DNA of 62,974 nucleotides from Occultella gossypii (GTDB lineage: Bacteria; Actinomycetota; Actinomycetes; Actinomycetales; Beutenbergiaceae): the NCBI RefSeq assembly GCF_019947135.1, contig NZ_JAGSHT010000030.1, positions 1-62,974 on the forward strand, read 5' to 3'. Each line of letters begins with the position of its first letter. Within the stretch, counting starts at the first letter, position 1. Below are positions 21,788-50,399 of the stretch, piece by piece. The translations under genes were made by a program, and so were the position numbers. Under the pieces are notes generated by a model, which ran no database searches, was not told where the DNA came from, and saw only the letters and a program-made list of their open reading frames with translations.

Positions 21788-23011
21788 ATGAGTCTGCCGA
21801 ACGCACCGGGACAGGCACGCGAGCAACTGGAGTCGATCGTGCTGCCGTTCTGGCTGGAGCACGGGGTCGATGAGCGGGACGGCGGATTCCACACCTGCTT
21901 TGACAACCGCGGGCGGACCCGGACCTCGACCGACAAGTTCACCTGGTCCCAGGGTCGGTTCGTGTGGCTCCTGGCTCGGGCCGCAGACCTGGGCCACCGG
22001 GGAAGCCTCGACGTGGACGGTGATCGGCTCCTCGCCCTCGCCACGACCGGCGCAAGGTTCCTGGAATCGTTCGCCGTGCGCGCGGACGGCACCTCACGTT
22101 TTGCCCTGGTCCGGACGGGTCACGCGGCGGCACCTGGCCACCCCGACCGCAGCGTCTATGCGGACTGCTTCGTCGCGATGGGCCTGGCCGAGCTCGGGCG
22201 CGTCACCGGTGAGCCCCACTGGCTCGAACTAGCCAGGCCGATCGTGGAGCGCGCCCGGACCGACATCCGTGCCGGCACCGCTCCGACCCCTCCCTATGAC
22301 GTGCCGGCCGGGTACCAGGCGTTCGGACCCCGGATGATCCTGCTGAACACGCTGCTGGTCTTCGCCCAGGCCGAACTCTCCCTGCACCGATCCCGATCGA
22401 CGTTCCCCTGGCTCCTCGAGGGACTCGACGCGATGCTGGAGCACCGCCTGCCGGACGGCACGTTCGCCGAGATGACCGGACCGGATCCCGAGTCGCTGAT
22501 CGGCCGGCATCGGGTGCCCGGGCACGCGATCGAAGGGATCTGGATGGCCCTCGAGGCAATGCCCCTGGTCGCGGACGAGCGTGACCGGAACCCACTTCTC
22601 GACTCCATCGGCGCACTGTGCACGCTCGGCTGGGATCGCGAGCTGGGCGGCCTGCTCCGCTTCACGGACTCGAGCGGAGCGGCGGCACCCACCGGCACCA
22701 CGTCCGGCACGCCGTACGAGGATCTCGTGGCCCGCACCTGGTCCACGAAACTGTGGTGGGTGCACTCCGAGGCTGCCGCCACGACGGCGATCGCGGCTAC
22801 ACGGTACGGCCACGGCCCCTCGGCCCAGTGGTTCCAACAGATCTGGGACTACACGCTGACAACGTTCCCGGGCCGTGGGGACGGCGAGGAGTGGATCCAG
22901 ATCCGAGATCGGAACGGACGTCCGCTCGACGAGGTGGTCGCCCTACCCGTCAAGGACCCGTACCACGTCGCCCGGAATCTCATGCAGATCGTCGAGCTGG
23001 GCCGGTCCTGA
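21788..23011 (+). CDS. N-acylglucosamine 2-epimerase (AGE)-family protein
   Basis: The 407-residue protein has the (alpha/alpha)6-barrel motifs of the AGE/cellobiose-epimerase superfamily: LPFWLEHGVDERDGGFHTCFD, TSTDKFTWSQGRFVWLLARA, RSVYADCFVAMGLAEL, RHRVPGHAIEGIWMALEA with the conserved His, and KLWWVHSEAAATTAI. Members epimerise at C2 or isomerise free sugars and short oligosaccharides in the cytoplasm. The ATG at 21788 has GGGAGTGGGA upstream. A LacI-type operator overlaps its promoter, so the enzyme belongs to the regulon of this block. The exact sugar cannot be read from the sequence. Confidence 0.88.
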   Translation: MSLPNAPGQAREQLESIVLPFWLEHGVDERDGGFHTCFDNRGRTRTSTDKFTWSQGRFVWLLARAADLGHRGSLDVDGDRLLALATTGARFLESFAVRADGTSRFALVRTGHAAAPGHPDRSVYADCFVAMGLAELGRVTGEPHWLELARPIVERARTDIRAGTAPTPPYDVPAGYQAFGPRMILLNTLLVFAQAELSLHRSRSTFPWLLEGLDAMLEHRLPDGTFAEMTGPDPESLIGRHRVPGHAIEGIWMALEAMPLVADERDRNPLLDSIGALCTLGWDRELGGLLRFTDSSGAAAPTGTTSGTPYEDLVARTWSTKLWWVHSEAAATTAIAATRYGHGPSAQWFQQIWDYTLTTFPGRGDGEEWIQIRDRNGRPLDEVVALPVKDPYHVARNLMQIVELGRS

Positions 23012-23026
23012 CGGCTCGACACCTGA

Positions 23027-24004
23027 TCAGGGTGGCGGTCCCGTGGTGCCGCGGACCGTGAGGGTCCCCTGGAGCTGTACGTTCGGCACCGGTCTCTGCT
23101 CCAGGAGCCCGTGCAGCGCGAGCACCGACTGGCGGCCCAGCTCCTCCAGCGGCGCCGTCACGGTGGTCAGTCCCGGTGTCATGGTTCGCGCCAGCAGGAC
23201 ATCGTCACAGCCGATGATGCTGCGGTCCCGCGGTACGGTCTCGCCCAGGTCGCTGAGGCCGGCGATGACACCGGCAGCCATCAGGTCATCGAACGCGAAC
23301 ACCGCCGTGGCCCCCGACTCGACGATCTGCGCTGCCGCGCGGCGACCGTCGACGAACACCGCTTCGTAATGGCCGAGCTCGGCGAGGCTCACCCCGGCCT
23401 CCTGCGCCCACGACCGGATCGCATGGGCGCGCCGCCCGGCCGCCCACGAGGCGGACGGTCCCCGCATCAAGGCGAACCGACGATGCCCGAGATCATGCAG
23501 GTGGGTGGCCGCTTCCCGCAGCGCGGCGGTGTTGTCGCAGACCACCGTGGCCAGACCCTGGGCAGCACGGTTGATGATGACGCTCGGCACTGCGCCGAGC
23601 GCCTCCTTGAGCTTCGCCGTCGCCAGGCGTGGGGACGCGACGAGCAGCCCGTCCACCTGCGCCTTGATCCGGCTGACCAACGCCGTCTCGGCGGCTCCGC
23701 TGCCCTCGGAGTCGACCAGGAGCACGCCCGCGTCGACCCTCGCGGCCGCCTGCTGGATCGCACGGATCAGCGGCGGGAAGAAGGGGTTCGTGACGTCCGG
23801 GACGAGCAGCCCGTAGAGGCCGGTGCGCCCGGTGGCCAGCCCGCGCGCCGCGCGGTTGGGTGCATAGCCGAGCTCCCGCGCGGTGGCCAGGACTCGTTCG
23901 CGGACCTCCGGCTTGACCAGGTCCGGGCGTGAGAACGCCCGGGACACCGTCGAGGCCGAGACCTCCAGTGCCTGTGCGATCGAGTAGATCGTCGCCTGCT
24001 TCAT
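23027..24004 (-). CDS. LacI-family repressor A of the glycan regulon
   Basis: The 325-residue protein opens with the helix-turn-helix ATIYSIAQALEVSASTVSRAFSRPDLV, then the hinge RAARGLATGRTGLYGLLVPDVTNPFFPPLI and a sugar-sensing domain (IINRAAQGLATVVCDN, VFAFDDLMAAGVIAGLSDLG, TTVTAPLEELGRQSVLAL). It is closely similar to repressor B at 33661, with the same recognition helix. Its own promoter (TTGACA-N17-TAGGTT) is followed immediately by an operator, so it is autoregulated. It is divergent from the alpha/beta hydrolase and convergent with the epimerase. The effector is probably an intermediate of the pathway encoded here. Confidence 0.92.
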   Translation of the reverse strand: MKQATIYSIAQALEVSASTVSRAFSRPDLVKPEVRERVLATARELGYAPNRAARGLATGRTGLYGLLVPDVTNPFFPPLIRAIQQAAARVDAGVLLVDSEGSGAAETALVSRIKAQVDGLLVASPRLATAKLKEALGAVPSVIINRAAQGLATVVCDNTAALREAATHLHDLGHRRFALMRGPSASWAAGRRAHAIRSWAQEAGVSLAELGHYEAVFVDGRRAAAQIVESGATAVFAFDDLMAAGVIAGLSDLGETVPRDRSIIGCDDVLLARTMTPGLTTVTAPLEELGRQSVLALHGLLEQRPVPNVQLQGTLTVRGTTGPPP

Positions 24005-24117
24005 GATCGGAAGGATCGACCTGGCGCCGACCACGACCGGCCATCACGATGCGGCGCGCGGCGGAGTTTCTTCATGGCCTGGCCATCCCTCGACTCGGTG
24101 GCGATTCGATCTCTACG

Positions 24118-24131
24118 TGCAATCGGTTGCA
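24118..24131. promoter_or_regulatory. LacI-regulon operator, repressor A promoter
   Basis: TGCAATCGGTTGCA, a perfect member of TGCAANCGNTTGCA. It lies three bases after the -10 box of the repressor A gene, covering the expected transcription start. The next site is 78 bp away. Confidence 0.8.
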
Positions 24132-24134
24132 AGC

Positions 24135-24163
24135 AACCTATGAGCCGCCGGCGGCACTGTCAA
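24135..24163 (-). promoter_or_regulatory. Promoter of repressor A gene
   Basis: On the minus strand TTGACA (24158-24163), a 17-bp spacer and TAGGTT (24135-24140), with an operator straight after. Confidence 0.65.
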
Positions 24164-24195
24164 GCATCGTTCGACATCCGGCAGTCAGATGCGCC

Positions 24196-24209
24196 TGCAA
24201 GCGGTTGCA
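24196..24209. promoter_or_regulatory. LacI-regulon operator, hydrolase promoter
   Basis: TGCAAGCGGTTGCA. Its right end overlaps a -35-like TTGCAC (24205-24210), followed after 17 bp by TTGGAT (24228-24233). The start codon GTG lies 7 bases further on. Confidence 0.75.
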
Positions 24210-24240
24210 CTCCGGCCGTAGGGCTGCTTGGATGGGAGTC

Positions 24241-25161
24241 GTGAACATCGATCCGACCGGCCAGGACTGGTGGCGCGGGTGGCTCGGGGCGGAGCCGGAC
24301 CCCGCCGGGACCTGGGATCTCGGTCCCGAGCTCGCCGACGACGCACTCGGTGGCACGACCCGGGACCTGACGCTGCACACCTTCGGTGCCGCCCTGACGG
24401 CCGTCTACCACCGGCCGGCCGTCGAGACGGTCCCCGGCGCGGTGGTCGTGGTGCCGTTCTATGACACGCCGCCGCTGTTCGGGCGGGCATCCCCCCGGAC
24501 CGAACGGATCGGCAGACCGCCTGCCTCGGCGGCGTTCGCGGTCCATCTGGCCCGGGCCGGGCTCGCCGTCCTCGCCGTGCCGTGGTGGTTCGAGCAGGTG
24601 GCCGCCGGTGATCGCCGGACTGCCGCCGCGGTCGGCCTGGACGACCGCTACGGACCGGCGGCCGCGGAGCACCTCCGCTCGCTCCCGATGACGGCGCTCG
24701 GCCGCAGTGTGGGCGATCTCATGCTCGCGGTCACGGCGCTGCGCGAGGAGCTGGGCCGATCGCGGATCGCGGTGTTCGGCCACTCGCTGGGCGGGAAGCT
24801 CGCGCTCCACCTGACCGCGCTCGATGACCGGGTGGTGGCCGGGGTGGCCCACGAGCCCGGCCTCGGCTTCGCCCACTCCAACTGGGACGCCCCCTGGTAC
24901 CTCGGCGACCGCCGTCCGGTCGATCGTGACCAGGACGACCTGCTCGCTCAGGTCGCCCCGCGGCCGTTCCTGCTCGCCGGCGGCGGCGCGAGCGACGGCA
25001 CCCACAACCTGGCTCTGGTCGAGCAGGCTCGGACCAGCTGGCCCGGCGGCCAGGGCCTGGACACTCTGATGCACAACGGCGGCCACCCGGTCCCGCACCA
25101 CGTGCTGATCGCGTGCACCACCTGGCTCGCCGACCGTCTGGGCGAAGGGCCGGCGACCTAG
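24241..25161 (+). CDS. Alpha/beta-hydrolase, dienelactone hydrolase/acyl-esterase-like
   Basis: This roughly 306-residue cytoplasmic protein has the nucleophile elbow GHSLGG (in IAVFGHSLGGKLALHL), and a C-terminal HNGGHPVPHH carrying the probable catalytic His. The acidic residue is likely in the RPFLLAGGGASDGTHN loop. The family includes acetyl-xylan and other carbohydrate esterases as well as dienelactone hydrolases. A role in removing acyl groups from imported sugars would fit the neighbourhood. Two starts are possible: GTG at 24241, positioned for a leaderless transcript, or ATG at 24232, which overlaps the -10-like box. The gene is divergent from repressor A and ends at a hairpin shared with the propeller operon. 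Confidence 0.8.
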   Translation: MNIDPTGQDWWRGWLGAEPDPAGTWDLGPELADDALGGTTRDLTLHTFGAALTAVYHRPAVETVPGAVVVVPFYDTPPLFGRASPRTERIGRPPASAAFAVHLARAGLAVLAVPWWFEQVAAGDRRTAAAVGLDDRYGPAAAEHLRSLPMTALGRSVGDLMLAVTALREELGRSRIAVFGHSLGGKLALHLTALDDRVVAGVAHEPGLGFAHSNWDAPWYLGDRRPVDRDQDDLLAQVAPRPFLLAGGGASDGTHNLALVEQARTSWPGGQGLDTLMHNGGHPVPHHVLIACTTWLADRLGEGPAT

Positions 25162-25187
25162 AACCGCCGCCGGCCTCCCGTCCGAGC

Positions 25188-25218: not shown

Positions 25219-25225
25219 ACGGAGC

Positions 25226-28200
25226 TCAGCTCGAGTTCGCCGGAACCTCGGGAACTCGCCGCCACTGGAACGAGTGGCTCCACCCGGTCGTGGCACCGGC
25301 GGCGATCACGTGTCCCTCGGTCGCCATCGCCGTCACGGACACCTCCCCGCTGGCGGCATGAACACCCGCGGGCGCGACCTCACCCGCGACGAGATACTCC
25401 ACGCCCTCGACGTCGGGGATCGTGTACCGGTCACGCGCCGGACCGGCCAGGTCGGTGAAGACCACGTCCTGCGGGGTCACCGGTTCCGGAACGTCGTACC
25501 TGAACACCTGCGCGCCGGTGGAGAACAGGACGTCTCCAGCCTCGTCGGCGACGGCGTAGGAGCCGACCCCGTTGACGATCGTGGTGTGCTCCATCGTCTG
25601 CGGATCGATCCGGAAGAAGGTGAACCGGTTCGAGCCGTACACGTTCCCGTCCGCGCCGACCGTCAGGTAGGCGTGCGCCCACACCGTGGCCGTCCCGTAG
25701 CGAGCGGCGAGCATCTTCTCCGAGTAGACGATCTCACCGGTGGCCGGGTCGTACTTGAAGACCGTGTCCTCCGAAACACCCCAGATCAGTCCGTCCGGCC
25801 CGAGCAGCAGACCGGTCACACCCTCGTCCCCGGCGACCGGGATGAGGTCTCGCACGACCTGCCCGGTGTCCGGATCGAACACGATGAAGTGCGCGTCGGT
25901 CTGACCCGACGGGGCCGCCCCCAGTCCACCGTCGATCGTGGTCCCGACGTAGACCAGGCCGTCGTGGTAGAGCACGTCGATCACGGACTGTTCGGTGACG
26001 ATCTCGTCGGTGTAGACGGTCTTGGTGTCGGTGGCGAAGTCGTACACCGTGAGCGCACCCTGGTTGTGCCCGTAGTGCGCGACGGTTCCCATGAAGATCC
26101 GGTCGCCGACCGGGTCGTAGTCCAGGCCGAACGGGCGGTCCTGATCCTCCGCCTCGAGCGAGAAGATCTGACGTGGGTTGGCCCCGGTGACGGGGTCGTA
26201 CTCCATCAGCCGGCCGTTCCCGTACGCGCCGAGCAGGAGCCGGCCGTTGCGCACCGCCGAGGACTCGTACTGCCCGGCCTGCACGGTGGTCCCGTGCTCA
26301 CCCGTCACGGAGTCGAACGGTGCCAGACCGACCATGTACCCGGATGCGTACATCGAGTCCGGGCCGAGGAAGAGCTTCTGGACGGTCACCGGATTCGTGT
26401 AGCCGATCGCGGCGGAGGTCACCTGGCCGGTGTCCGGGTTGTAGGCGGCCACGCCGTTGCCGGTCGCCGCCTGGAGGGTCCAGCCCGGCCATTGCGGATC
26501 GTCGCGCTCCACCCAGCGGGAGTCGTTCAGGAAGCCGTTGCTGGGCACGCCGGTGTTCCGGACCTCCTGGGTCAGCGCGTTGTACTCCCAGAACGTGCTG
26601 GTGGTGAAGATGTACGTGTTCGGGTCGTCCGGGCGCTGAGCCACGTTGTAGCCGAACATCGAGCGGTCCGCCCCGATGAACTCAACCTCGTCCGCCGCGG
26701 TGATGACGGTCAGCCGGCTCGGGTTTAGCCGGGCGAACAGCCGGTCGCCCACGAACGTGAACGAGGTGATGAAGGACTCGTCCCCCGCGCCTGGCGCGTT
26801 CTCCTCAGTGAGCAGCGCGGTCTTCGTGCCGTCCGCTCCGATCTTGTAGATCTGGGCGCTGCTGCCCCCCACACCCACGTACAGGTTGCCTCGCTCGTGG
26901 TCGTAGGCGAGCGCCCGGATGTAGGCCTGGGTCTCGTCGACGCGCCCGAGGTTCGTGATCGAGTCGTCGGCCGGGTCGTACCGGAACAGCAGCCCCTGCG
27001 GGTAGGTGCCGATGTACATCGTCCCGTCCGGACCGTCGGCCAGGGACCAGCCGTACCCGTCCGACGGCGACGCCGGGTTGATCAGGCCGATGTTGCGAGC
27101 CTCGTGGGTCGCCGGGTCGTACGTCCACAGGGTGAGGTTGCTCGTGACCATGTAGATCCGGCCATCGGTGGACCTGCGGATCTCGGTGGCATGATCGGTG
27201 CCGGCCAGCGGGATCGTCCGGACGATGGCACCGGTCGCGGTGTCCGCGACCACCAGCGTGGCCGGGCTCCCGGATGCGGCGTTGCCCCGGTAGACGCCGT
27301 AGGTCATCGAGACCCCGTCCTCCTCGCCGAGCACCATGTTCGTGATGATCCGGCTCGACACCGGGGCGCCGAGGTGGGTGAGGTTCGGGTTCTGGGCGAC
27401 GATCTGTTCGGGCGTGGGACGCGGCGGCAGCGGCGGTACCGGCGGCTCCTGGTCGGTGGCGACCATGGCGACGTCGTCGACGTAGCCGGACCCGAGGCCG
27501 GCGGTGGAGGAGTTCAGCAGCACCGTGCCGGTGACCGCACCGGCGGGCGCGGCGACGGCGAACGTCACCTCCTGCCAATCGTCGCCGTTCGCGTCGGCCC
27601 AGACCGCCTGGTTCACGAGCCGGTTGCCGCCGGAGTCGAAGTAACGCACGTAGAGCCCGAGCGGTCCGCGCTCGAGGTTCATCCATGCGGAGGCCTGGTA
27701 GACGATGCCGGGCTGCACCCGGAACGGTTCGCTCTGCAGGCTCACCCCGCGAACGGAGTTGTTGTCCTCGATGCGCAGGCTCCGGGAGCCGCCGTGCGCC
27801 AGCGCGTCGGTGAGCCCGATCGACTGGTTCTCCCAGACGGTGCCGTCGATGGCCCAGCCGGTGACCGGGTCGATGGCTCCATCCTCGAAACCGCCGTTGG
27901 TCAGCGGGAGCTCGGCGACCGGTCGGGTCACGTCCACGCGCACGTCGTCCACGTACCCGCGTCCGGTGCTTGCGCCGCCCGAGTACAGCAGTACCGTCCC
28001 GGTCACCGCACCTGCCGGGCCTGTGGCCGTGGCGGTGGTCGCCACCCACCGACCGTCGGTGACGCCGGAGCCGGTCCACTCGCTGCCCACCAGTGCGCCG
28101 GCGGCGTCGTAGAACCTGATCCACACACTGACGGCGTCCCGCTCGACGTCGAGCATGGCCTCGGCCGTGTAGGTCGAACCGACCTCGACGGCGAACGGGT

Positions 28201-28531
28201 CGCTCTCGATGCCCAGCCCGTAGGTCGCGTGGTTGTCATCGAGAAGCAGGCTCCGTGCACCGGAGTTGGCCCGGTCCGGCGAAACCGCGAACACCGTGTC
28301 CGGCCGGGCGACGCCCCACAGGCTCCAGCCTGGGATCGACCCGTCGGCAGCAAGGTCGTCCTCGAACCCGGCGTTCACCAGCGCGACGTCGCCGGTGGCT
28401 TGGGCCCCGACGCTCGGAGCCGTCGGTGCGGCGCCTGCGGCCACTGCCGCGAGGGGCAGGGCCAACGCCGCAGCCGCCAGTGTGGCGATACCTCGAGTCG
28501 TGGTTCGCCGGCTCATTCCGTGACCTCGCAT
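25226..28531 (-). CDS. Secreted beta-propeller protein with two jelly-roll modules (unknown activity)
   Basis: The 1101-residue product has a signal peptide (hydrophobic residues about 14-35) and two tandem jelly-roll, carbohydrate-binding-like modules (about 48-205 and 210-365; paired motifs VNAGFED / TNGGFEDG, SLLLDDNHATYGLGIES / SLRIEDNNSVRGVSLQS, and VTGTVLLYSGG / VTGTVLLNSS before GYVDDV). A long beta-propeller follows from about 375 to 1040, with blade repeats such as DPADDSITNLGRVDETQAYIRALAYDHERGN. A small C-terminal beta domain ends the protein. I recognise no catalytic motif; several polysaccharide lyase families are propellers, so a lyase is possible but unproven. AGGAGG precedes the ATG, which lies just after the stop of a paralogue. 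It shares long near-identical stretches with that paralogue but gained the binding modules. Confidence 0.75.
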   Translation of the reverse strand: MRGHGMSRRTTTRGIATLAAAALALPLAAVAAGAAPTAPSVGAQATGDVALVNAGFEDDLAADGSIPGWSLWGVARPDTVFAVSPDRANSGARSLLLDDNHATYGLGIESDPFAVEVGSTYTAEAMLDVERDAVSVWIRFYDAAGALVGSEWTGSGVTDGRWVATTATATGPAGAVTGTVLLYSGGASTGRGYVDDVRVDVTRPVAELPLTNGGFEDGAIDPVTGWAIDGTVWENQSIGLTDALAHGGSRSLRIEDNNSVRGVSLQSEPFRVQPGIVYQASAWMNLERGPLGLYVRYFDSGGNRLVNQAVWADANGDDWQEVTFAVAAPAGAVTGTVLLNSSTAGLGSGYVDDVAMVATDQEPPVPPLPPRPTPEQIVAQNPNLTHLGAPVSSRIITNMVLGEEDGVSMTYGVYRGNAASGSPATLVVADTATGAIVRTIPLAGTDHATEIRRSTDGRIYMVTSNLTLWTYDPATHEARNIGLINPASPSDGYGWSLADGPDGTMYIGTYPQGLLFRYDPADDSITNLGRVDETQAYIRALAYDHERGNLYVGVGGSSAQIYKIGADGTKTALLTEENAPGAGDESFITSFTFVGDRLFARLNPSRLTVITAADEVEFIGADRSMFGYNVAQRPDDPNTYIFTTSTFWEYNALTQEVRNTGVPSNGFLNDSRWVERDDPQWPGWTLQAATGNGVAAYNPDTGQVTSAAIGYTNPVTVQKLFLGPDSMYASGYMVGLAPFDSVTGEHGTTVQAGQYESSAVRNGRLLLGAYGNGRLMEYDPVTGANPRQIFSLEAEDQDRPFGLDYDPVGDRIFMGTVAHYGHNQGALTVYDFATDTKTVYTDEIVTEQSVIDVLYHDGLVYVGTTIDGGLGAAPSGQTDAHFIVFDPDTGQVVRDLIPVAGDEGVTGLLLGPDGLIWGVSEDTVFKYDPATGEIVYSEKMLAARYGTATVWAHAYLTVGADGNVYGSNRFTFFRIDPQTMEHTTIVNGVGSYAVADEAGDVLFSTGAQVFRYDVPEPVTPQDVVFTDLAGPARDRYTIPDVEGVEYLVAGEVAPAGVHAASGEVSVTAMATEGHVIAAGATTGWSHSFQWRRVPEVPANSS

Positions 28532-30877: not shown

Positions 30878-30943
30878 GGTGCCTCTCCCAAGCAGTCGAA
30901 CTGTGTTGCGACGCCGCGGAGCCTTCGTTGGCCGCACGGGTCT

Positions 30944-30957
30944 TGCAATCGGTTGCA
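30944..30957. promoter_or_regulatory. LacI-regulon operator, propeller operon
   Basis: TGCAATCGGTTGCA within the longer palindrome CTTGCAATCGGTTGCAAG, about 13 bases downstream of the minus-strand -10 box, in position to block transcription. Confidence 0.8.
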
Positions 30958-30970
30958 AGTGATGAACGAG

Positions 30971-31000
30971 AGAGTAGTGGCCCACGTCACATCCGCGCAA
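30971..31000 (-). promoter_or_regulatory. Promoter of the propeller operon
   Basis: Minus-strand TTGCGC (30995-31000), 18 bp, TACTCT (30971-30976). Moderate match to consensus, supported by the operator that follows. Confidence 0.45.
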
Positions 31001-31018
31001 CCCCTGGGTCCTCACTTT

Positions 31019-33393: not shown

Positions 33394-33415
33394 GACCACC
33401 CACCCCTATAGCGCT

Positions 33416-34647: not shown

Positions 34648-34812
34648 GAGTCCCTCCGACCGTTCCTCGGCCGCGCCGCGCGGACCGATGCCCCACCCGC
34701 CACGACCGTCCTCGGGCGACTCCCGCGGCCACACGCTCCAGGCGCGCCGGGTCGGAATGGTGGCGAGTGAACCCCATCATGACGCACGACGCCCGCCGGC
34801 GGCGCCAGGTTG

Positions 34813-42705: not shown

Positions 42706-42733
42706 CTGAACTCTCCGTTCGGCCGGGTTGCGC

Positions 42734-42749
42734 GTCACACCGCTGTGAC
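42734..42749. promoter_or_regulatory. Perfect inverted repeat in the leader of the importer operon
   Basis: GTCACA-CCGC-TGTGAC is a perfect 6-bp inverted repeat between the operator and the binding-protein gene. It could be another regulator's site (half-sites like those of CRP but in the reverse order) or an mRNA hairpin. Confidence 0.35.
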
Positions 42750-42760
42750 TGGACTCACGT

Positions 42761-42774
42761 TGCAACCGATTGCA
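42761..42774. promoter_or_regulatory. LacI-regulon operator, importer operon
   Basis: TGCAACCGATTGCA, four bases after the minus-strand -10 box; it covers the expected start of transcription. Confidence 0.8.
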
Positions 42775-42778
42775 AGTC

Positions 42779-42808
42779 AACATAGCCACTCCGTGCGGAC
42801 CAGGTCAA
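42779..42808 (-). promoter_or_regulatory. Promoter of the importer operon
   Basis: Minus-strand TTGACC (42803-42808), 18 bp, TATGTT (42779-42784), followed by GACT and then the operator; the arrangement matches the NagB-like promoter base for base in spacing. Confidence 0.65.
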
Positions 42809-42943: not shown

Positions 42944-43048
42944 AGAGTTGCCCGTGAAGACCGAACGAGCTGCGCGATTCCCCAGGCGGGGCGATCCCTC
43001 GCACCTGGCCTCGATCGCGTCATCCGCGTGCCCACTTGGAGGTTCAGA

Positions 43049-45505
43049 ATGAGGAGTCACCCTGCCCGCTTCCGATATCGCAGACGGCTGCATCGCCTGG
43101 TTCCGGCCGGGGCGGCGCTCGCCGTCGCAGCAGCGCTCCTGGTTGCGACGCCCGCCGGCGCCGAGCCGGAGGTCCCGACCGCCGAGGGCGCCCTCGCCGT
43201 GTCCGCGACAGTCGTCGACCTGGGCGTCGCCGCGACGCAGGTCAACGTCCGCACCGGGGTGACCGCGGTGTTCCCTGACGGGACCCCGGTGGCGTATGTG
43301 CTCTCCGACGGCAACCCGGTCTCCTTCAACGTGATCAACGTCGAGACCGGCGCGCTCATCTCGTCGTTCCCGCTGCCGCCGAAGTCGATCGGCGGCTACC
43401 CCGCGGTCGCCCCCGACGGCTCCGCCTACTTCGGGGTCCGAGACGGCAGGAGCACGCTCGTCTATCACTACGACCCGCTCACCAACGACGTCGAGTTCCT
43501 GATCGAGAGCCCCACCGGCGACTCCGTCACCCGGAGCCTGGTGGTGGGCGAGAACGGCCTGGTCTACGGAACCACCTATCCGCGCGCCAAGGCGTTCACC
43601 TACGACCCGCAGACCGGCGAGGTGGTGGACTTCGGGTCCGTGACCACCGGTGACGCCTATGGGTGGGGACTGGAAGAGGTGAACGGCACGATGTACATCG
43701 GCACCGGCATCGGCGAGGGGCACGTGATGACGGTCGATACCGCGACCCGCGAGATCGCCGAGCTGGCACTGCCGCCGGAGTACGACGAGGCGCTGACCTA
43801 CTTCTACCGCTTCCAGCAGGTCGGGGACCTGGTGGCGATGGCGTTCTCACCCGGTCTCCCGGGCGGCACGAACACCGCGTTCTGGGACACCGTCAACCAG
43901 GAGTGGGCGTGCGAGGGCGCCATCGGCACGTTCTTGCAGCTGAACGGCCCGTACACCCAAGCCACGCCCGACGGCGTCATGTACTACAAGTCGGGGGGCG
44001 AGATCTGGTCGTTCGACTCTTCCGACTGCTCGACGGCGGCCACCGGTTGGGCCGATCTCGGGCTCTCCGGTTCCCACCGGGTGCTCGACCTCGTCATGGT
44101 CGGCGAGGCAGACGCCGCCGAGCCGTGGCTGGTCGGCGTCAACAATGACGGCTCCATGTGGCGGTTCAACCCGAGCACGGGTGAGCACGCGGAGTTCGAG
44201 AGCGAGGTGCTGGGCGCTCCGCTGACTGCCCACACCGTCACCAGCGGCCCGGACGACCAGATCTACGTGAGCACCTACCTCGGGCCGGGCACGATCAGCC
44301 GCTACGACCCCGCGACCGAGCAGATCACACAGCTCAACGGCCCAGGTCAAGCGGACTCATGGCTCACCTACGGTGACGAGGTCCTGGTCGGGAGCTATCC
44401 GAACGCCATCGTGCACCGCGGCGACCCGGCGCAGCCGTGGGACTGGGGCACCAACCCGGCCCACGCGTTCCAACTCATCGGGGACGCCCAGGACCGGGTC
44501 ATCTCGATGGCGACCGACGGCGCACTCGTCGCCCTCGGCACGGTGTCCGACTACGGGGTGCGCGGTGGTGCGCTGACGATCACCGACATGAACGGCACCA
44601 TCGACGTCTACCGGGATCCGGTCCCGAACCAGAGCGTCACATCGGTGGCGTTCGGTGCGGACGGCCTCGTCTACGCCGGCACCTCGATCCGCGGCGGACT
44701 GTCCAGCCCGAACAGCCCACTGGATGCACATCTGGTGGTGGTCGACCCGGCTACAGGCACTCAGGAGTTCGCCGGCGTGCCGGTACCGGGCAACGACGTG
44801 GTGGCCGCACTCGCCGTCCGAGGGGAGACCGTGTGGGGCCTGACGAACACGGGAATGGTCTTCGGCTTCGACACCGCCAGTCGCACGGTCACGTCGACGA
44901 CGGATCTGGGCACCGGCCGCTCGGCCTCACCATGGGGCCTGGGCAGCACCCTCCAGGCCAATCCGGTCGACGGCCTGCTGTACGGCATCGCGGGTGAGTC
45001 GGTCTTCGTGTTCGACCCGGCCACCCAGGAGTTCCGGATCCTGACCGAGCCCGGCTTCAAGCGGTTGACCATCACCACGTCGGGTCAGCTCTACGCAGTC
45101 GGCGCGACGAACCTGTACCGGATCGACCTCGAGGGGACCGTACCCGCGTGCACCGCCACCATCGACGGCCAGCACACCGGTCCGCTGACGGTCACCGACG
45201 GCGTCACCTGCGTCCTCGGCGCCACCGTCGACGGGCCGGTCACCGTGGGGGCCGGCGGGAGTCTGGTGGTGCGAGATGCCACCCTCGTCGGCCCGGTCGC
45301 CGGCACCTCGGCGGCGACCATCGCGATCACCGACTCCTCGATCACCGGGCCGGTCATGATCACCGGCTCCACCGTGGAGACGACGATCGCCGGAAACGAG
45401 ATCGTCGGTCCGCTGGCGTGCTCGGGCAACACCCCGGAGCCGACCAACGCCGGTGTGCCGAACACGGTGTCCGGATCCCGGTCGGGTCAGTGCGCCGACC
45501 TCTGA
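43049..45505 (+). CDS. Secreted beta-propeller protein with C-terminal beta-repeat domain
   Basis: The 818-residue protein starts at the ATG behind GGAGG. A signal peptide (RRRLHRLVPAGAALAVAAALLVATPAGA) is followed by a propeller of repeated blades: TYDPQTGEVVDFGSV, NGTMYIGTGIG, RYDPATEQITQLNG, GLVYAGTSIRGGL, VFGFDTASRTVTST. It is a distant relative of the two paralogues at 25226-30877 (compare GLVYAGTSIRGGL with GLVYVGTTIDGGL). The last 120 residues (CTATIDGQHTGPLTVTDGV, then GPVTVGAGGS, ITGPVMITGS) form a short beta-helix-like domain with three Cys. No membrane anchor. The gene is divergent from the importer operon and operator-controlled. Its likely role is binding or depolymerising the glycan outside the cell. 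Confidence 0.75.
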   Translation: MRSHPARFRYRRRLHRLVPAGAALAVAAALLVATPAGAEPEVPTAEGALAVSATVVDLGVAATQVNVRTGVTAVFPDGTPVAYVLSDGNPVSFNVINVETGALISSFPLPPKSIGGYPAVAPDGSAYFGVRDGRSTLVYHYDPLTNDVEFLIESPTGDSVTRSLVVGENGLVYGTTYPRAKAFTYDPQTGEVVDFGSVTTGDAYGWGLEEVNGTMYIGTGIGEGHVMTVDTATREIAELALPPEYDEALTYFYRFQQVGDLVAMAFSPGLPGGTNTAFWDTVNQEWACEGAIGTFLQLNGPYTQATPDGVMYYKSGGEIWSFDSSDCSTAATGWADLGLSGSHRVLDLVMVGEADAAEPWLVGVNNDGSMWRFNPSTGEHAEFESEVLGAPLTAHTVTSGPDDQIYVSTYLGPGTISRYDPATEQITQLNGPGQADSWLTYGDEVLVGSYPNAIVHRGDPAQPWDWGTNPAHAFQLIGDAQDRVISMATDGALVALGTVSDYGVRGGALTITDMNGTIDVYRDPVPNQSVTSVAFGADGLVYAGTSIRGGLSSPNSPLDAHLVVVDPATGTQEFAGVPVPGNDVVAALAVRGETVWGLTNTGMVFGFDTASRTVTSTTDLGTGRSASPWGLGSTLQANPVDGLLYGIAGESVFVFDPATQEFRILTEPGFKRLTITTSGQLYAVGATNLYRIDLEGTVPACTATIDGQHTGPLTVTDGVTCVLGATVDGPVTVGAGGSLVVRDATLVGPVAGTSAATIAITDSSITGPVMITGSTVETTIAGNEIVGPLACSGNTPEPTNAGVPNTVSGSRSGQCADL

Positions 45506-45517
45506 GGCGGGGTGATG

Positions 45518-45540: not shown

Positions 45541-45550
45541 TAGTCGAGCG

Positions 45551-45586: not shown

Positions 45587-45602
45587 TGTGTCCGTCGCGA
45601 AG

Positions 45603-45702
45603 CTCGCCGGGCCGGGAACCGCGCGAGAGCCAGAACTCGTCGGGCCGCAAGCCCTCGTCAGACCGCAACCTCCTCGAGCCGCAGACCCTCGTCAGACCGC
45701 GA
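45603..45702. repeat. Degenerate tandem repeat (about 18 bp) at the end of an oxidoreductase gene
   Basis: Units resembling CTCGTCAGACCGCAA recur at about 45603, 45636, 45654, 45673 and 45688. The last unit contains the stop codon and final codons of the minus-strand oxidoreductase gene, as if the 3' end had been copied repeatedly. Confidence 0.6.
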
Positions 45703-46687
45703 AGCTCCGGGCACCGCCGTCGCCGTCCGCGCTCTCCTGCGCGAGCAGCGCGACACGAGTCGCGAGCAGGCTGGCGGCCGTGGTGATCTCGGGTTCCCGG
45801 CCGGCGTCGACCGCGTCGAAGAAGTACGCGGCCGGGCGCCGTGGCGGCGGCAGCGTCTCGACCCATGGGGCGCGGTCGTGGGTGGCGACCGTGAGCGTGT
45901 TGTACGCCCAGTCCAGCTCGGCCGTGCCCTCCGAACCGGTCAGGCGCATCCGGTAGTGCCCGTGCACGTCCGCGGCCTGGGGGGAGAGCCAGTTCGCCTC
46001 GATCGTCGCGGTCACCGGCCCGGCCCGGAGCAGCACTGCCACATGGTCGTCGAACTCCGGGTGGTCGGCGGCCCGCGCGTTCCCGGTCAGGGCGCTCACC
46101 GAGCCCGAGGTCGCGCCGGTCAGGGTCAGCACGAGGTCGATATCGTGGATCGGCAGATCCGCAGCGATCCCGCCGTAGCCGGCGCGGCTCAGGAACCAGG
46201 CCGGCCGGGTGGGCAGGTTGAGCTTGTGCGGGCCGGTGCTCGCGACCAGGGCGAGGTCCCCCAGCACGCCGTCGGCGAGCAGCCGGCGGACGGCCAGCGT
46301 GGGCGGGTAGAACCGCTTCTCGAACACCACCGAGACGTGCCGGTCCGCCCGCTCGGCCGCATGCTCGATCTCGTCGAGCTGGGTCAGCGACGTGCACAGT
46401 GGCTTGTCCGCGAGCACGTGCGCACCTGCCTCGAGAGCGGCGAGCACGGCCGACGCCCGCTCGCCGTACACACCGGCCACGAGGGCCACGTCCACGTCGT
46501 GCGCGGCGAGCAGCTCGCCGGGGTCGGCGTAGGTCGGCACGTCCGGCGCACCGGCAAGGTGGGCGGCGCGCATCGCGGGATCCGGCTCCGCGATCGCGAC
46601 CAGCTCGCACGAGGGCCGCTGGGCAACCTCGTCCAGGGCGTAACTCACGTGCGGGTGCGCCGCACCGAGGATGGCCACGCGGGTCAT
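45692..46687 (-). CDS. Gfo/Idh/MocA-family oxidoreductase 1
   Basis: The 331-residue protein has the N-terminal Rossmann domain (RVAILGAAHPH, a variant of GxGxxG; VADKPL at the EKP position) and a C-terminal alpha/beta domain with DLPIHDIDLVLTLTG, which holds the conserved Asp and His. These enzymes oxidise or reduce sugars and inositols with NAD(P). The unusual GAAHPH loop suggests a different cofactor grip. The ATG overlaps the stop of oxidoreductase 2 by 4 bp, so the two are made together. Substrate unknown. Confidence 0.87.
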   Translation of the reverse strand: MTRVAILGAAHPHVSYALDEVAQRPSCELVAIAEPDPAMRAAHLAGAPDVPTYADPGELLAAHDVDVALVAGVYGERASAVLAALEAGAHVLADKPLCTSLTQLDEIEHAAERADRHVSVVFEKRFYPPTLAVRRLLADGVLGDLALVASTGPHKLNLPTRPAWFLSRAGYGGIAADLPIHDIDLVLTLTGATSGSVSALTGNARAADHPEFDDHVAVLLRAGPVTATIEANWLSPQAADVHGHYRMRLTGSEGTAELDWAYNTLTVATHDRAPWVETLPPPRRPAAYFFDAVDAGREPEITTAASLLATRVALLAQESADGDGGARSFAV

Positions 46688-47709
46688 GAGAGGTCCTCCA
46701 GTCGCACCTGGCGCCCGGTCCGGGCCGCCTCGTAGATCCCGCAGAGCAGCCGGACGGTCCCCACGGCGTCGGTGGCATCGGCCGCGGACCGGCGTCCGCC
46801 TGCGATCGCCGCCAGGACCTCCCGCCACATCGCGACGTGCCCCGCGATCCCGATCGCCGCCGGATCCGATGCCCCACTGATCACCGAGTCGTCCGCGGGC
46901 GGCGGCGGCACACCGGGCACGTCCCAGCGGATCACCTCACCCTGGCCCAGCTCGACGACGCCCCGGGACGTGTGCAGGGTGAGCGTCGCGGGCGAGCCGG
47001 GCGGGGTGGCCGTGGAGGTGCTGATCATGCCGAGCGCACCCGAGGCGAACCGCAGCGTGGCCACCGTGGTGTCCTCGGCGTCCATCTCGTGCCCGAGCGT
47101 GCCGTACTGCGCGGTCACGTCGGCCACCGGGCCGCACAGCCAGCGCAACAGGTCCACGTTGTGCACGCCCTGGTTCATCAGCGAACCGCCACCGGCGGCC
47201 ATCGAGGAGCGCCATCCGGCGGCCGCGTAGTAGTCGTCGTCGCGGTGCCAGTGCACGTGGGTGGTGGCCAGGCGCACCCGGCCGAGGCGGCCGTCGTCGA
47301 GCAGGGTCCTGACGTAGGCGAACTCGGCCTCGAACCGCCGCTGCGCGACCATGGCGATCACCACGCCCCGCTCGGCCTGCAGCGCGGCGAGCCGCTCCGC
47401 GTCGGCGACCGAGGTGGCCATGGGCTTCTCCACAAGGACGTGCCGGCCCGCCTCCGCGGCGGCGATGGCCAGCGGTGCGTGCCACTGGGTGGGAGTGCAG
47501 ACCGCGACGGCAGCCACCTCCGGGTGCGCGATCACCGCGTCCGGGTCGAGCCGGACCGCCCCCGGCCAGCCGCTCTCGGCCGCCAGCCGAGGACTTCCGC
47601 CACTGAACGCCACCAGATTCACGCCGGGCAGCGCACGCAGGGCCCGCGCGTGCGTGACCCCGATCGCGCCCAGCCCGATGATGCCGATACCGAGTTCGGG
47701 CGAGCTCAC
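46684..47709 (-). CDS. Gfo/Idh/MocA-family oxidoreductase 2
   Basis: This 341-residue member has a standard NAD site (IGIIGLGAIGVTHARAL), the EKP motif in VLVEKPMAT, and GGGSLMNQGVHNVDLLRWL with the conserved His of the active site. The GTG at 47709 is chosen because GGAAGGG lies six bases upstream; a GTG at 47724 would add five residues. It is divergent from oxidoreductases 3 and 4, with one LacI-type operator in the 88 bp between them. Likely a sugar or sugar-acid dehydrogenase. Confidence 0.88.
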   Translation of the reverse strand: MSSPELGIGIIGLGAIGVTHARALRALPGVNLVAFSGGSPRLAAESGWPGAVRLDPDAVIAHPEVAAVAVCTPTQWHAPLAIAAAEAGRHVLVEKPMATSVADAERLAALQAERGVVIAMVAQRRFEAEFAYVRTLLDDGRLGRVRLATTHVHWHRDDDYYAAAGWRSSMAAGGGSLMNQGVHNVDLLRWLCGPVADVTAQYGTLGHEMDAEDTTVATLRFASGALGMISTSTATPPGSPATLTLHTSRGVVELGQGEVIRWDVPGVPPPPADDSVISGASDPAAIGIAGHVAMWREVLAAIAGGRRSAADATDAVGTVRLLCGIYEAARTGRQVRLEDLS

Positions 47710-47761
47710 CTGGGTCCCTTCCACGACGGAGAGTGTCCCGCCACCCTACGGTGTCGAACCC

Positions 47762-47790
47762 TTGACTTGCAACCGATTGCACGCCAGGAT
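47762..47790 (+). promoter_or_regulatory. Promoter of the oxidoreductase 3-4/esterase operon
   Basis: TTGACT (47762-47767), a 17-bp spacer filled almost wholly by the operator, and CAGGAT (47785-47790). A transcript would begin at or next to the GTG at 47798. Confidence 0.5.
47768..47781. promoter_or_regulatory. LacI-regulon operator, oxidoreductase 3-4 operon
   Basis: TGCAACCGATTGCA sits exactly between the -35 and -10 boxes, a position that blocks polymerase directly. Confidence 0.8.
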
Positions 47791-47797
47791 GCGTCGC

Positions 47798-48673
47798 GTG
47801 AAAAGAATCGGATTCATAGGCACCGAGAACTCCCACACCGACCACTTCATCCGCTTCCTCAACGCCGAGGAACGCCACCCCGGCCATCGCGCAGCAGCGC
47901 TGGTCGGCGGAGCGAACGACCGCAACTCCGCGCTGGCCGCGAGCGGCGGGATCGACCTCGTCGTCGAGGCACCGGAGGACCTGATCGGGCAGGTCGACGC
48001 CGCGATCATCTCCAGCCGCGACGGCGCACTGCACCGCCGGCAGGCGGAGCCGCTCCTGGCGGCCGGCATCCCGGTGCTGGTGGACAAGCCGCTCGCCACC
48101 ACCGTCCCCGACGCCGCTGCCATCCTGGCCGCAGCCCACGCGGGCGGGGCGCCGGTGTTCTCCGGTTCCGCGCTGCGGTTCGTGCCGCAGATCTCGGAAC
48201 TGCGCGACGGCGGAGCCGAGCTCGGGCCGTTGCGTCACCTGCACGTGGTGGGTCCGGCCGATCCCGACAGCCCGTACTCGGGCCTGGCCTTCTACGGGAT
48301 CCACCACGTGGAGGCCGCACTGGAGATCCTCGGCAACCCGGTCCTCGTGCCCGGCGAGGTCACTCCCGTGGTGCGCCGGCACGGCGACACGACCACCGCC
48401 GTCGTACGCCTCGGCGAGACCGAGGTGACGTTCACGTTCGTGGTTCCCGGCGATGCGACCCGGGTGCCGTTCCACGCCACCGCCGTGCGGACCAACGGCG
48501 TCATGGCGCGCGAGCTGGTGCTGGACCGCGACTACAACGCGCCCGCCCTGGCCGCGTTCATCGACGCGGTCGAGACCGGCCGCTCCCCCGTTACCGACGA
48601 ACACCTGCTCAGCCCGGTGGTGGTGCTCAGCGCCATCGCCGAGGCCCTGCCCCTCGGAAAGGACGAATCATGA
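47798..48673 (+). CDS. Gfo/Idh/MocA-family oxidoreductase 3
   Basis: The roughly 291-residue protein begins KRIGFIGTENSHTDHFIRFLN, a divergent nucleotide loop (GTENSH in place of GxGxxG). VLVDKPLAT replaces the EKP motif, and AFYGIHHVEAALEILG takes the active-site helix. It is shorter than most family members. The GTG at 47798 fits a leaderless message from the promoter at 47762-47790; the ATG at 47789 (three codons earlier) overlaps the -10-like box and is the alternative. The stop overlaps the next start by 4 bp. It may act on the same intermediate as the other three enzymes or be a partner subunit. Confidence 0.82.
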   Translation: MKRIGFIGTENSHTDHFIRFLNAEERHPGHRAAALVGGANDRNSALAASGGIDLVVEAPEDLIGQVDAAIISSRDGALHRRQAEPLLAAGIPVLVDKPLATTVPDAAAILAAAHAGGAPVFSGSALRFVPQISELRDGGAELGPLRHLHVVGPADPDSPYSGLAFYGIHHVEAALEILGNPVLVPGEVTPVVRRHGDTTTAVVRLGETEVTFTFVVPGDATRVPFHATAVRTNGVMARELVLDRDYNAPALAAFIDAVETGRSPVTDEHLLSPVVVLSAIAEALPLGKDES

Positions 48674-49659
48674 CCACGCCCCTGCGGTTCGGCGTCATCG
48701 GCGTCGGCACCATCGGCCGTGCCCACCTCAAGCGGCTCCGTTCGGCGCAGTCCCCGGGCGAGCTGGTCGCCCTCGCGGACGTCTCGGCCGAGGCGGCCGC
48801 CGCCGCGGCGCAGGAGTTCGGCACGACGGCGGAGACGCTGGAGTCCCTGCTCGCCCGGGCGGACGTGGACGCCGTGATCGTCGCGATCCCGTCCGGTCTG
48901 CACGCGGACACGACCATCGCTGCCCTCGATGCCGGCAAGCATGTGCTGCTCGAGAAGCCGATCGACGTCACGGTCGATGCCGCGGACCGGATCATCGCGG
49001 CCGAGGAGCGTTCCGGGAAGACCCTCTCGGTGGTGAGCCAGCGCCGGTTCGCGGCGGAGAACCAGTTCCTGCGGGATGCGATCGCCGCGGGGCACCTGGG
49101 CAAGGTCACCGCCGCGAACATCGAGATCGCGCTCTGGCGCACGCAGGAGTACTACGACTCCGGCGCCTGGCGCGGTACCTGGACACTCGACGGCGGTGGC
49201 GCGCTGATGAACCAGGGCGTGCACCTGGTGGACCTGATCCTGTGGCTGCTCGGTGACGTCGAGGAGGTGTACGCCCACGGTGGGCTGCTCGCGCACGAAC
49301 GCATCGAGGTCGAGGACACGATCACGATCACGGCCCGGTTCGCCAGCGGCGCCCTGCTCACCTTCCTCGCCACCACCACCGCCTACGACAACCTCCCTCT
49401 GCGGGTGGCGATCATGGGCGACGGCGGCAGTGCCGTCACGCTGTCGGAGAAGTTCACGCACTATGAGTCCCGTACCGGGGCGGCGCCGGAGGAGTTCGGT
49501 GCGGTCGACCAGCAGCTCGGTCAGCTGAACGACTTCGTCACGGCCGTGCAGGCCGGCACCCGGCCGCTGGTCACCTCCGTCGAGGCGCGCGCGGCCGTCG
49601 CGTTCATCGAGGCCGCCTACACGTCGATGCGCACGGGCGAGCCGGTCAAGCCGCGATGA
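48670..49659 (+). CDS. Gfo/Idh/MocA-family oxidoreductase 4
   Basis: A canonical 329-residue member: NAD site RFGVIGVGTIGRAHLKRL, EKP in HVLLEKPIDV and active-site GGGALMNQGVHLVDLILWLLGD. It resembles inositol 2-dehydrogenase and related sugar dehydrogenases, and is closest in the window to oxidoreductase 2 (shared WR...G, GGG.LMNQGVH motifs). Overlapping starts and stops (ATGA on both sides) make it the middle gene of a tight three-gene operon. Confidence 0.9.
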   Translation: MTTPLRFGVIGVGTIGRAHLKRLRSAQSPGELVALADVSAEAAAAAAQEFGTTAETLESLLARADVDAVIVAIPSGLHADTTIAALDAGKHVLLEKPIDVTVDAADRIIAAEERSGKTLSVVSQRRFAAENQFLRDAIAAGHLGKVTAANIEIALWRTQEYYDSGAWRGTWTLDGGGALMNQGVHLVDLILWLLGDVEEVYAHGGLLAHERIEVEDTITITARFASGALLTFLATTTAYDNLPLRVAIMGDGGSAVTLSEKFTHYESRTGAAPEEFGAVDQQLGQLNDFVTAVQAGTRPLVTSVEARAAVAFIEAAYTSMRTGEPVKPR

Positions 49660-50399
49660 GCCTGGGCCCGGCCGATCCGACGGTGCCGACAGGGCAGACG
49701 GTGCCGACCGGGCAGACGGTGCCGACCGGGCAGTCGGTGCCGACCGGGCCGGCCGGGGTGCTGGCGCCGGTGCTCGCGGCGAGCACGCCCCAGGTGTGGT
49801 CGTTCATCGGTGACTCGGTGACGGCGGCGAGCTGGCACACCTGGGGTGGGCGCGGCTTCGTCGAGCTCTTCCACGAGCGTCTGCGCGAGCTCGGCCGCAC
49901 CAGGGACGGCGTGGTGAACACGGCCGTGTCCGGCTGGCGGGTCACCGACCTCGCCGAGAACCTGGACGCCATCTGCCTGCGTTACCGGCCCGACGTCGTC
50001 ACGATCGGCGTCGGGCTGAACGACACCAAGGGCCTGGCCGACGGCGTCGACGCCTTCGGACGCACCTACCGCGAGCTGGTGACGCGGATCCGCGAGGCGA
50101 GTGACGCCGTCGTGGTCCTGCAGACCCCGAACGGCACCCTGCCCACCGGGCCGGAGCACGTGCTGGCCCACCTGGACGCCTACGTCGCGGAGATCCGCGG
50201 CGTCGCTCGGGACCTGGAGGCGCCGGTGGTGGACCACTACGCGCAGTGGCAGGCCACCGATGCGAACACCTGGTACCACTGGCTCGGGCACGGCTGCCAC
50301 CCGAACGCCTACGGCCACCGCGCGATGGCCCGCACCATGATGCAGGCGTTCGGGGTGTGGAGCGAGGACGCCAAGAGTGGGCGCCTGACCATCCCGTGA
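49656..50399 (+). CDS. SGNH/GDSL-type hydrolase
   Basis: The 247-residue protein has the SGNH blocks: GDSV (nucleophile Ser in FIGDSVTAA), Gly in VNTAVSGWRVTDL, GVGLND (block III Asn) and HGCHPNAYGH (catalytic Asp position is Cys, His present; the usual DxxH reads CHPNAYGH). It probably removes acyl groups from sugars. No signal peptide is seen, so the acting site is the cytoplasm unless the N-terminus is misjudged. The first 35 residues are four TVPTGQ repeats encoded by an 18-bp tandem repeat. It ends the oxidoreductase operon and so falls under the LacI-type operator at 47768. Confidence 0.82.
   Translation: MSLGPADPTVPTGQTVPTGQTVPTGQSVPTGPAGVLAPVLAASTPQVWSFIGDSVTAASWHTWGGRGFVELFHERLRELGRTRDGVVNTAVSGWRVTDLAENLDAICLRYRPDVVTIGVGLNDTKGLADGVDAFGRTYRELVTRIREASDAVVVLQTPNGTLPTGPEHVLAHLDAYVAEIRGVARDLEAPVVDHYAQWQATDANTWYHWLGHGCHPNAYGHRAMARTMMQAFGVWSEDAKSGRLTIP
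49680..49751 (+). repeat. 18-bp tandem repeat encoding TVPTGQ units
   Basis: Four consecutive copies of ACGGTGCCGACCGGGCAG (with single-base changes) in frame with the SGNH hydrolase, so copy number could vary without breaking the gene. Confidence 0.9.

Follow-up and report, generated by a model that had tools for sequence, protein, structure and literature searches.

Can a locus that seems equipped for polysaccharide use, and yet encodes no recognised secreted glycoside hydrolase, be assigned a substrate and a mode of attack? This question is raised by positions 21788–50399 of a 62,974-nucleotide contig of Occultella gossypii, the whole of which was analysed (hereafter the window; 63 kb, 70% GC, in a genome of 5.84 Mb). 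An earlier note, made from the letters alone, had described this block as a candidate glycan-degradation system built around three exported beta-propeller proteins. Open reading frame (ORF) calling and Pfam searches identified 20 genes in it and bore out its edges, from an AGE-family epimerase to a GDSL-type esterase (Table 1), the epimerase start presupposing an ATG at residue 32 of the ORF that begins at 21695. No glycosidase or polysaccharide lyase family was matched in the 20 block proteins tested (E ≤ 0.01 for 18 proteins and E ≤ 1e-5 for two MocA proteins), so the reported lack of a recognised secreted glycoside hydrolase holds for this set. Signal-like N-termini, read by eye, were found on all three large propeller proteins, in line with their proposed export.

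The exported stage, the importer and the sugar catabolism are thus encoded together, and they are conserved together; operators precede most transcription units, and double propellers are present in every genome that carries the system. A conserved glycan-use regulon is therefore well supported. With a probability of roughly 0.6, we read it as a LacI-controlled regulon for the use of an extracellular glycan. This glycan would contain N-acetylhexosamine, probably together with uronic acid, and may carry sulfate or ester groups in some species.

A shared operator and a conserved gene set

The palindrome TGCAAnCGnTTGCA occurs in nine exact copies in the genome, eight of them inside the block region, where an even spread of the nine would put about 0.04 in 28.6 kb. 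When up to three mismatches were allowed, the window contained 10 sites, versus 1.95 ± 1.51 in shuffled sequences (largest value 6). Exact sites precede the epimerase gene, the NagB gene and the importer operon (one each), the LacI1–hydrolase gap and the gap from propeller 2 to the DUF4127 gene contain two each, and one separates MocA3 from MocA2. Propeller 3 is preceded by a copy with one mismatch, and no TGCAAnCGnTTGCA operator was found upstream of LacI2. The block 21788–50399 is one regulon, in which LacI1 and LacI2 would be the proteins that bind TGCAAnCGnTTGCA. The ninth exact copy lies outside the window (G000:C10:73989-74002; L057:9990), at the 5' end of a gene whose product (358 aa as called) looks secreted and has a right-handed beta-helix domain (PF13229); the best match of this protein in the PDB is a rhamnogalacturonan lyase (E 0.006 over 60 residues). 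Its fold is common to many lyases, and it is a candidate for an additional regulon member.

The same palindrome marks the relatives. Across the window and the fetched loci (1,112,930 bases, some overlapping), 65 copies were counted, and zero copies of five control palindromes. Eight of the 24 family genomes scanned carry the system, namely that of O. gossypii (G000) and seven others (G014–G019 and G021); these eight contain 5–9 copies each and the other 16 contain 0–2, and a reversed control pattern was found once each in five of the 24 and not in the rest. Since the motif resembles the common LacI/CcpA-type site, single distant hits need care.

Conservation of the locus was assessed by tblastn with thresholds set by hand, on fetched stretches rather than whole genomes. 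All seven other system genomes have the propeller, alpha/beta hydrolase, AGE, NagB, enolase-superfamily enzyme, D-2-hydroxyacid dehydrogenase family protein (2-HADH), MocA1–4 and LacI; DUF4127, NagA and GDSL were each found at the locus in four of the seven, NagA being present there in G014, G016, G018 and G019, as well as in a Microbacterium locus (L064). The kind of importer varies: it is Opp-type in the window, whereas relatives have a CUT1-type binding protein (7/7), sometimes together with an Opp-type one (3/7). Two further genomes of the same genus keep part of the block at the syntenic place, together with two operators, G008 retaining MocA1–4, GDSL, NagB and LacI2, and G010 retaining MocA1–3, NagB and LacI2; their LacI2 copies are 91–92% identical to LacI2 of the window. 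Neither the propeller nor the importer block was found at the syntenic place in either (L123, L124, L125), as if it had been gained here or lost there; elsewhere, both genomes have a remote homologue of the propeller, at about 25% identity.

Double propellers: lyases, binding proteins or other enzymes

Propellers 1, 2 and 3 (PropCBM, Prop2 and Prop3) are homologous, PropCBM being 69% identical to Prop2 over 722 columns and Prop3 26% over 633 columns (E 3e-37). A CBM_4_9 domain was matched at residues 210–338 of PropCBM (Pfam, 3.4e-11), with a second repeat visible by eye, and other propellers can likewise carry CBM_4_9 or F5/8C domains. The AlphaFold2 model of Prop2, based on 19 alignment rows, has pLDDT (predicted local confidence) mostly near or above 90 over model residues 50–690; it contains 55 strands between 58 and 689, that is, about 14 four-stranded blades, which may be read as two seven-bladed propellers, and the C-terminal 90 residues lie outside it. 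A Foldseek search of the PDB with this model returned 1550 matches with E ≤ 0.001. The best 50 of these, to which all statements below on fold neighbours refer, comprised tandem WD40 proteins, microtubule-doublet propellers, Bacteroides sensor domains (among them the heparin/heparan sulfate sensor BT4663), PorZ and tricorn protease. Since TM-scores were low (0.21–0.35 by query length), these matches name the architecture and not the function. The earlier note would have been weakened by a clear match to a known non-enzymatic family; none emerged, the neighbours being generic tandem propellers, glycan-sensor domains and a protease.

Sequence searches were equally general. Among 27 propeller members, Pfam matched DUF6923 in 23, PQQ_2 in 18, and DUF5074 and Reg_prop in 16 each (25 of 40 families viewed), with weaker matches to Tachylectin (7/27), Glu_cyclase_2, SGL and, in a single member, Vgb_lyase (E 0.0096). 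NCBIfam gave few matches for the propellers, and a PDB sequence search nothing better than E 0.46. The open-access literature searched contained no publication linking a Ruania propeller to a polysaccharide and nothing related on DUF6923 or DUF5074.

A more specific signal was provided by residue conservation, counted in Prop2 numbering over 41 non-redundant core members and 12 distant homologues (the propeller gene of L043, 13549-16027, called in two frames, was excluded). Tyr251, Gln470, Tyr486 and Arg515 are invariant in the 41 core propellers, in which Gln513 is kept in 38 and Asp514 in 36. Tyr486 and Arg515 are retained in all 12 distant homologues and Gln513 in 10, whereas position 470 is Glu in nine of the 12 and position 514 is Asn in nine. 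Because the conserved residues fall at A-strand starts and one B-strand end of neighbouring blades, they would share one face, as judged from strand order. Gln470, Tyr486 and Arg515, which belong to the second propeller, probably form a site for ligand binding or catalysis.

An invariant Tyr and Arg would suit a polysaccharide lyase (PL), and the earlier note had suggested that the propellers might be a new family of lyases or of binding proteins. PL24, PL25 and PL42 are beta-propellers tied to uronate glycans; each has one propeller of seven blades and acts through Arg, Tyr and His (PMC8377490); the likeness in Tyr and Arg contrasts with the about 14 blades and the lack of a conserved His seen here, where no His column reached 50% in the 41 core propellers. 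Neither PL24, PL25 and PL42 nor any other PL appeared among the fold neighbours, and PL24, PL25 and PL42 were also absent from the 25 of 40 Pfam families viewed. GH88/GH105 (PF07470), which takes off unsaturated uronyl ends in the classical lyase pathway, was not above cut-off in G000, G014, G016, G017 and G021, and in G015, G018 and G019 it was present outside the locus. These fold, His and GH88/GH105 results do not support the idea of a new family of lyases, the last of them not being decisive because several system genomes have PL8 without GH88. Lyase activity, possibly through Tyr486 and Arg515, is an unlikely explanation, notwithstanding the persistence of these residues along with Gln470 and, mostly, Gln513, the CBM-like domains attached to propellers, the single Vgb_lyase match, and the connections with uronate, CE15 and PL8 that relatives show (below).

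The propellers might instead have no catalytic activity and, as surface or glycan-binding proteins, offer the polymer to enzymes from other loci (the products of PL8 genes, the beta-helix protein). The fold neighbours, mainly tandem WD40 and Bacteroides sensor domains, are consistent with this, as are the weak Reg_prop and Tachylectin matches, the three PL8 matches in G000 and the operator at the beta-helix gene. The Bacteroides two-component sensors (e.g., BT4663) share a large tandem-propeller region (best Foldseek E 7.8e-17), but TM-scores to them were 0.25–0.29 by query length, one of the three propellers here has CBM-like domains, and neither a histidine kinase nor a regulator domain of Pfam was detected in the three propeller proteins. 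Moreover, one polar residue set is kept in diverged copies, and propeller paralogues sit in distinct loci with sulfatases or a GH123-type protein, as is often the case for enzymes. A binding role is possible, if somewhat doubtful.

Enzymes of another kind were also considered. GH74 xyloglucanases consist of two seven-bladed propellers with Asp-boxes and resemble the present proteins in their tandem arrangement; however, the Asp-box S.D.G.[TS]W had 0 matches in the 41 core propellers and GH74 was absent from the fold neighbours. A bolder and tentative proposal is that the double propellers form a new class of carbohydrate-active enzymes with a His-free Gln/Tyr/Arg site, duplicated to give several specificities and coupled to a GH88/GH105-independent cytoplasmic route (DUF4127, the four MocA, enolase-superfamily enzyme and 2-HADH) for uronyl-N-acetylhexosamine fragments. 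If the propellers are enzymes, they make up an untyped family with many paralogues in several actinobacterial genera, and establishing the activity of one of them would allow dozens of loci to be annotated.

Cytoplasmic enzymes and the probable glycan

The best indications of the substrate come from amino-sugar enzymes. The best PDB match of the AGE epimerase is an N-acyl-D-glucosamine 2-epimerase (8.1e-34), and its block HRVPGHA.E is invariant in the nine sequences aligned, the NCBIfam equivalog cut-off being missed. The NagB-like protein also falls short of its equivalog cut-off (NCBIfam nagB, 3.3e-28). The active-site blocks of NagB are DEY and GH.AFNEP, and both were found here, H.DEY and GVNGH.AFNEP being invariant in 8/8 aligned. 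All eight system genomes have NagB and several have NagA (that of L064 matching NCBIfam nagA at 4.5e-53, under cut-off), which indicates an amino sugar; with AGE, these enzymes make it better supported than uronate. The combination of AGE and NagB with intact blocks, accompanied in some relatives by a NagA gene at the locus, recalls the catabolism of N-acetylglucosamine and N-acetylmannosamine; the difference is that here it is joined to four MocA, an enolase-superfamily enzyme, 2-HADH and DUF4127 in a kinase-free block.

The uronic acid that the earlier note had suggested from carboxylate-handling enzymes gained indirect support through relatives and none through the enzymes cited. The enolase-superfamily assignment of its acid-sugar dehydratase-like enzyme stands. 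Acid-sugar dehydratases of this superfamily have a catalytic His on the C-terminal half. The motifs K.K, D.NE, Y.EQP, DEG and KA.KG are invariant in 8/8 aligned, as is one His (HSA), taken by eye for a helix residue. The pattern K.K ... KA.KG, presumably MLE-type, makes a dehydratase role for this gene less likely, and for this reason uronate is not supported by the enzymes cited. A rejected candidate was a GH109-like NAD-dependent glycosidase for MocA1, whose best PDB matches are oxidoreductases.

Genes beside propellers in relatives add to the case for uronate. D-mannonate dehydratase (ManD), above its equivalog cut-off, was found in Microbacterium (L064) and Frigoribacterium (L065), glucuronate isomerase (UxaC) in Phytoactinopolyspora (L068), and mannitol-dehydrogenase-family proteins in L065 and L068. 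The latter may be fructuronate reductases, that of L065 matching D-arabinitol dehydrogenase first and fructuronate reductase second in NCBIfam, all under cut-off, with an operator 23 bp upstream of its start. The alpha/beta hydrolase relative in Microbacterium matched GCE_fung at 8.7e-9. In G021 and G017 an operator lies outside the main locus between NagB and a CE15 esterase; the G021 protein matches glucuronoyl esterase structures (3e-81) and has a large alkaline-phosphatase-type protein nearby. In G016 (G016:C1:4226050-4234773; L119:6051-14774) two operators separate NagB and a CE15-like ORF (by eye) from an operon with a CUT1 importer and a PL8/CBM96 lyase, which matches chondroitin AC lyase at 1e-95 and xanthan lyase at 4e-76. 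Sulfation is suggested by two sulfatases with an SGSH-type C-terminus in L065, an operator standing about 100 bp before one of them, and propeller paralogues adjoin SGSH-type sulfatases in L109, L111 and L113 and a GH123-type protein in L110. A heparinase-like identity considered by eye for a 1256-aa protein of L052 was rejected, with no Pfam match at E ≤ 1e-5 and mostly propeller designs in the PDB search. No publication on glycosaminoglycan use by actinobacteria was found in the open-access literature searched.

Peptidoglycan or a muropeptide was weighed as another target, in view of the Opp-type importer and NagA/NagB; the MLE-type enolase would then be an amino-acid or dipeptide epimerase and 2-HADH a D-lactate-type dehydrogenase. 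The Opp-type substrate-binding protein in the block agrees with this, as do the best NCBIfam hit of the enolase, N-acetyl-D-Glu racemase (E 4.8e-6, far under cut-off), and the weak VanH matches of 2-HADH (NCBIfam). On the other hand, no etherase, amidase or muramidase was present among the block proteins tested, a CUT1 sugar-type binding protein occurs in all seven other system genomes, and uronate genes and sulfatases lie beside the relatives, making this target improbable.

For the glycan containing N-acetylhexosamine and probably uronic acid, the following route can be proposed. The propellers would act as the extracellular stage, attacking or holding the polymer, and oligosaccharides would enter through the importer. 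The alpha/beta hydrolase and the GDSL enzyme could remove esters, the four MocA, the enolase-superfamily enzyme, 2-HADH and DUF4127 could rework an oxidised or glycosidic part, and AGE, NagA and NagB would carry the amino sugar towards fructose-6-phosphate.

Several observations weigh against this reading. Within the window NagB and AGE are the only proteins that speak for the substrate, and uronate rests on relatives. The substrate of NagB is a phosphorylated sugar, yet the block contains no sugar kinase. Within the stretches that were fetched, the locus lacks NagA in G000 (which has a distant copy elsewhere in the genome), G015, G017 and G021, and lacks DUF4127 in G015, G017 and G021, G015 having a DUF4127 copy on another contig. 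The propeller exoproteins are probably enzymatic, their catalysis being a prediction. G009 has propellers without any exact operator, the distant propeller homologues in L104 and L105 lie amid housekeeping-looking genes (by eye), and distant TGCAAnCGnTTGCA hits may belong to other regulators. Seventeen of the 24 family genomes have PL8 and, going by position, a single copy, that of G016 at 4233031, is close to an operator; because PL8 is so widespread in the family, its link to the operator is suggestive only, and PL8 under operator control was rejected as a general rule.

Distribution, features of the block and neighbouring genes

Prop2 was matched at E ≤ 0.001 in 17 of the 24 family genomes, in several by the C-terminal module only, and with up to eight matches per genome (G014) when such hits were excluded. 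In a sample of the phylum, at least five of 396 genomes (G000 included) match the propeller profile at E ≤ 1e-20, a lower bound given that the three best first-look candidates were scored per genome, and DUF4127 was found in seven of the 396. A scan of genome contigs yielded eight named loci. Locus L066 repeats L049, with which it shares a gene at 100% identity. The genera with propellers comprise Georgenia, Microbacterium, Jiangella, Frigoribacterium, Ruania, Phytoactinopolyspora and a Candidatus Avipropionibacterium metagenome-assembled genome.

Table 1. Operator sites and genes of the block (window positions)
Feature	Position	Strand	Evidence and remarks
Operator TGCAAnCGnTTGCA, eight exact sites	Starts 21727 (first, 21727..21740), 24118, 24196, 30944, 31019, 33416, 42761, 47768
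AGE-family (N-acylglucosamine 2-epimerase-like) epimerase	21788..23011	+	Pfam GlcNAc_2-epim 9.3e-23; operator 21727
LacI-family regulator 1 (LacI1)	23027..24034	-	Pfam LacI and Peripla_BP_3; operators 24118, 24196 close to start
Alpha/beta hydrolase, distantly glucuronyl-esterase-like	24049..25161	+	Pfam Abhydrolase_1 6.6e-7; GCE_fung 2.7e-4 (under cut-off); real start probably about 24232
Propeller 1 (PropCBM)	25226..28531	-	CBM_4_9-like N-terminal part, double propeller, C-terminal module
Propeller 2 (Prop2)	28535..31015	-	AlphaFold2 model mbb85199052d3; operator 30944; real start probably about 30877
DUF4127 protein	31086..32567	+	Pfam DUF4127 1.4e-118; operator 31019
NagB-like amino-sugar-phosphate deaminase	32596..33399	-	Pfam Glucosamine_iso 1e-18; operator 33416
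LacI-family regulator 2 (LacI2)	33661..34734	-	Pfam
Enolase-superfamily enzyme	34883..36226	-	Pfam MR_MLE_C 2.2e-12
D-2-hydroxyacid dehydrogenase family (2-HADH)	36223..37233	-	Pfam 2-Hacid_dh_C 1.4e-46
Opp/Dpp-type importer double ATPase	37218..39011	-	Pfam ABC_tran (two stretches) and oligo_HPY
Opp/Dpp-type permease C	38932..39837	-	Pfam BPD_transp_1, OppC_N
Opp/Dpp-type permease B	39834..40880	-	Pfam BPD_transp_1 5.3e-37
Twin-arginine-type lipoprotein substrate-binding protein SBP_bac_5	40942..42789	-	Pfam 4.5e-66; start SRRLFLGG...LAGC, twin-arginine/lipobox by eye; operator 42761
Propeller 3 (Prop3)	43028..45505	+	Homology to Prop2; one-mismatch operator 42930
Gfo/Idh/MocA oxidoreductase 1 (MocA1)	45692..46828	-	Pfam; N-terminus over-called
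Gfo/Idh/MocA oxidoreductase 3 (MocA3, P0001)	46684..47724	-	Open frame with MocA domain
Gfo/Idh/MocA oxidoreductase 2 (MocA2)	47786..48673	+	Pfam GFO_IDH_MocA 5.4e-13 on longer ORF 47351-48673; start inferred; operator 47768
Gfo/Idh/MocA oxidoreductase 4 (MocA4, P0002)	48670..49659	+	Open frame with MocA domain
GDSL-type esterase	49656..50399	+	Pfam Lipase_GDSL_2 4e-29

The regulon also offers a testable context for DUF4127, on which no publication was found in the open-access literature searched. With its model (pLDDT 85.3), Foldseek found nothing in the PDB at E ≤ 0.001, and a fold relationship to a known enzyme was rejected (best E 0.0029, TM 0.15). Elsewhere DUF4127 was found near NAGLU and NanE (L079), near GH38 and an FAD oxidoreductase (L080) and near an FAD oxidoreductase (L082), the last two loci also having sugar importers nearby. 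A second copy in the O. gossypii genome (G000:C15:315294-316823; L083) is accompanied by a CUT1 importer, an FAD oxidoreductase and another LacI regulator.

With regard to propeller architecture, the C-terminal module of Prop2 (window 28556-28873, residues about 715–820) recurs in other large proteins, mostly at 45–54% identity, and in genomes such as G002, G004, G005 and G006 it was (nearly) all that was matched. A 2011-aa protein of G009, a genome of the same genus (L051:9917-15952), contains two double propellers together with F5/8C and Ig-like domains. In three Ruania-group genomes, a propeller was also observed in another type of locus, alongside two sulfatases and genes for a CUT1-type importer (L109, L111 and L113 of G014, G016 and G019); in G018 (L112), the 20 kb fetched contain the propeller and the importer but no sulfatase. 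Outside the regulon, a sialic-acid lyase role was rejected for the DHDPS-type gene at 60069-60986, the matches being under cut-off, and a large LPXTG-type surface protein with a right-handed beta-helix is encoded at 17988-21572, just beyond the regulon edge.

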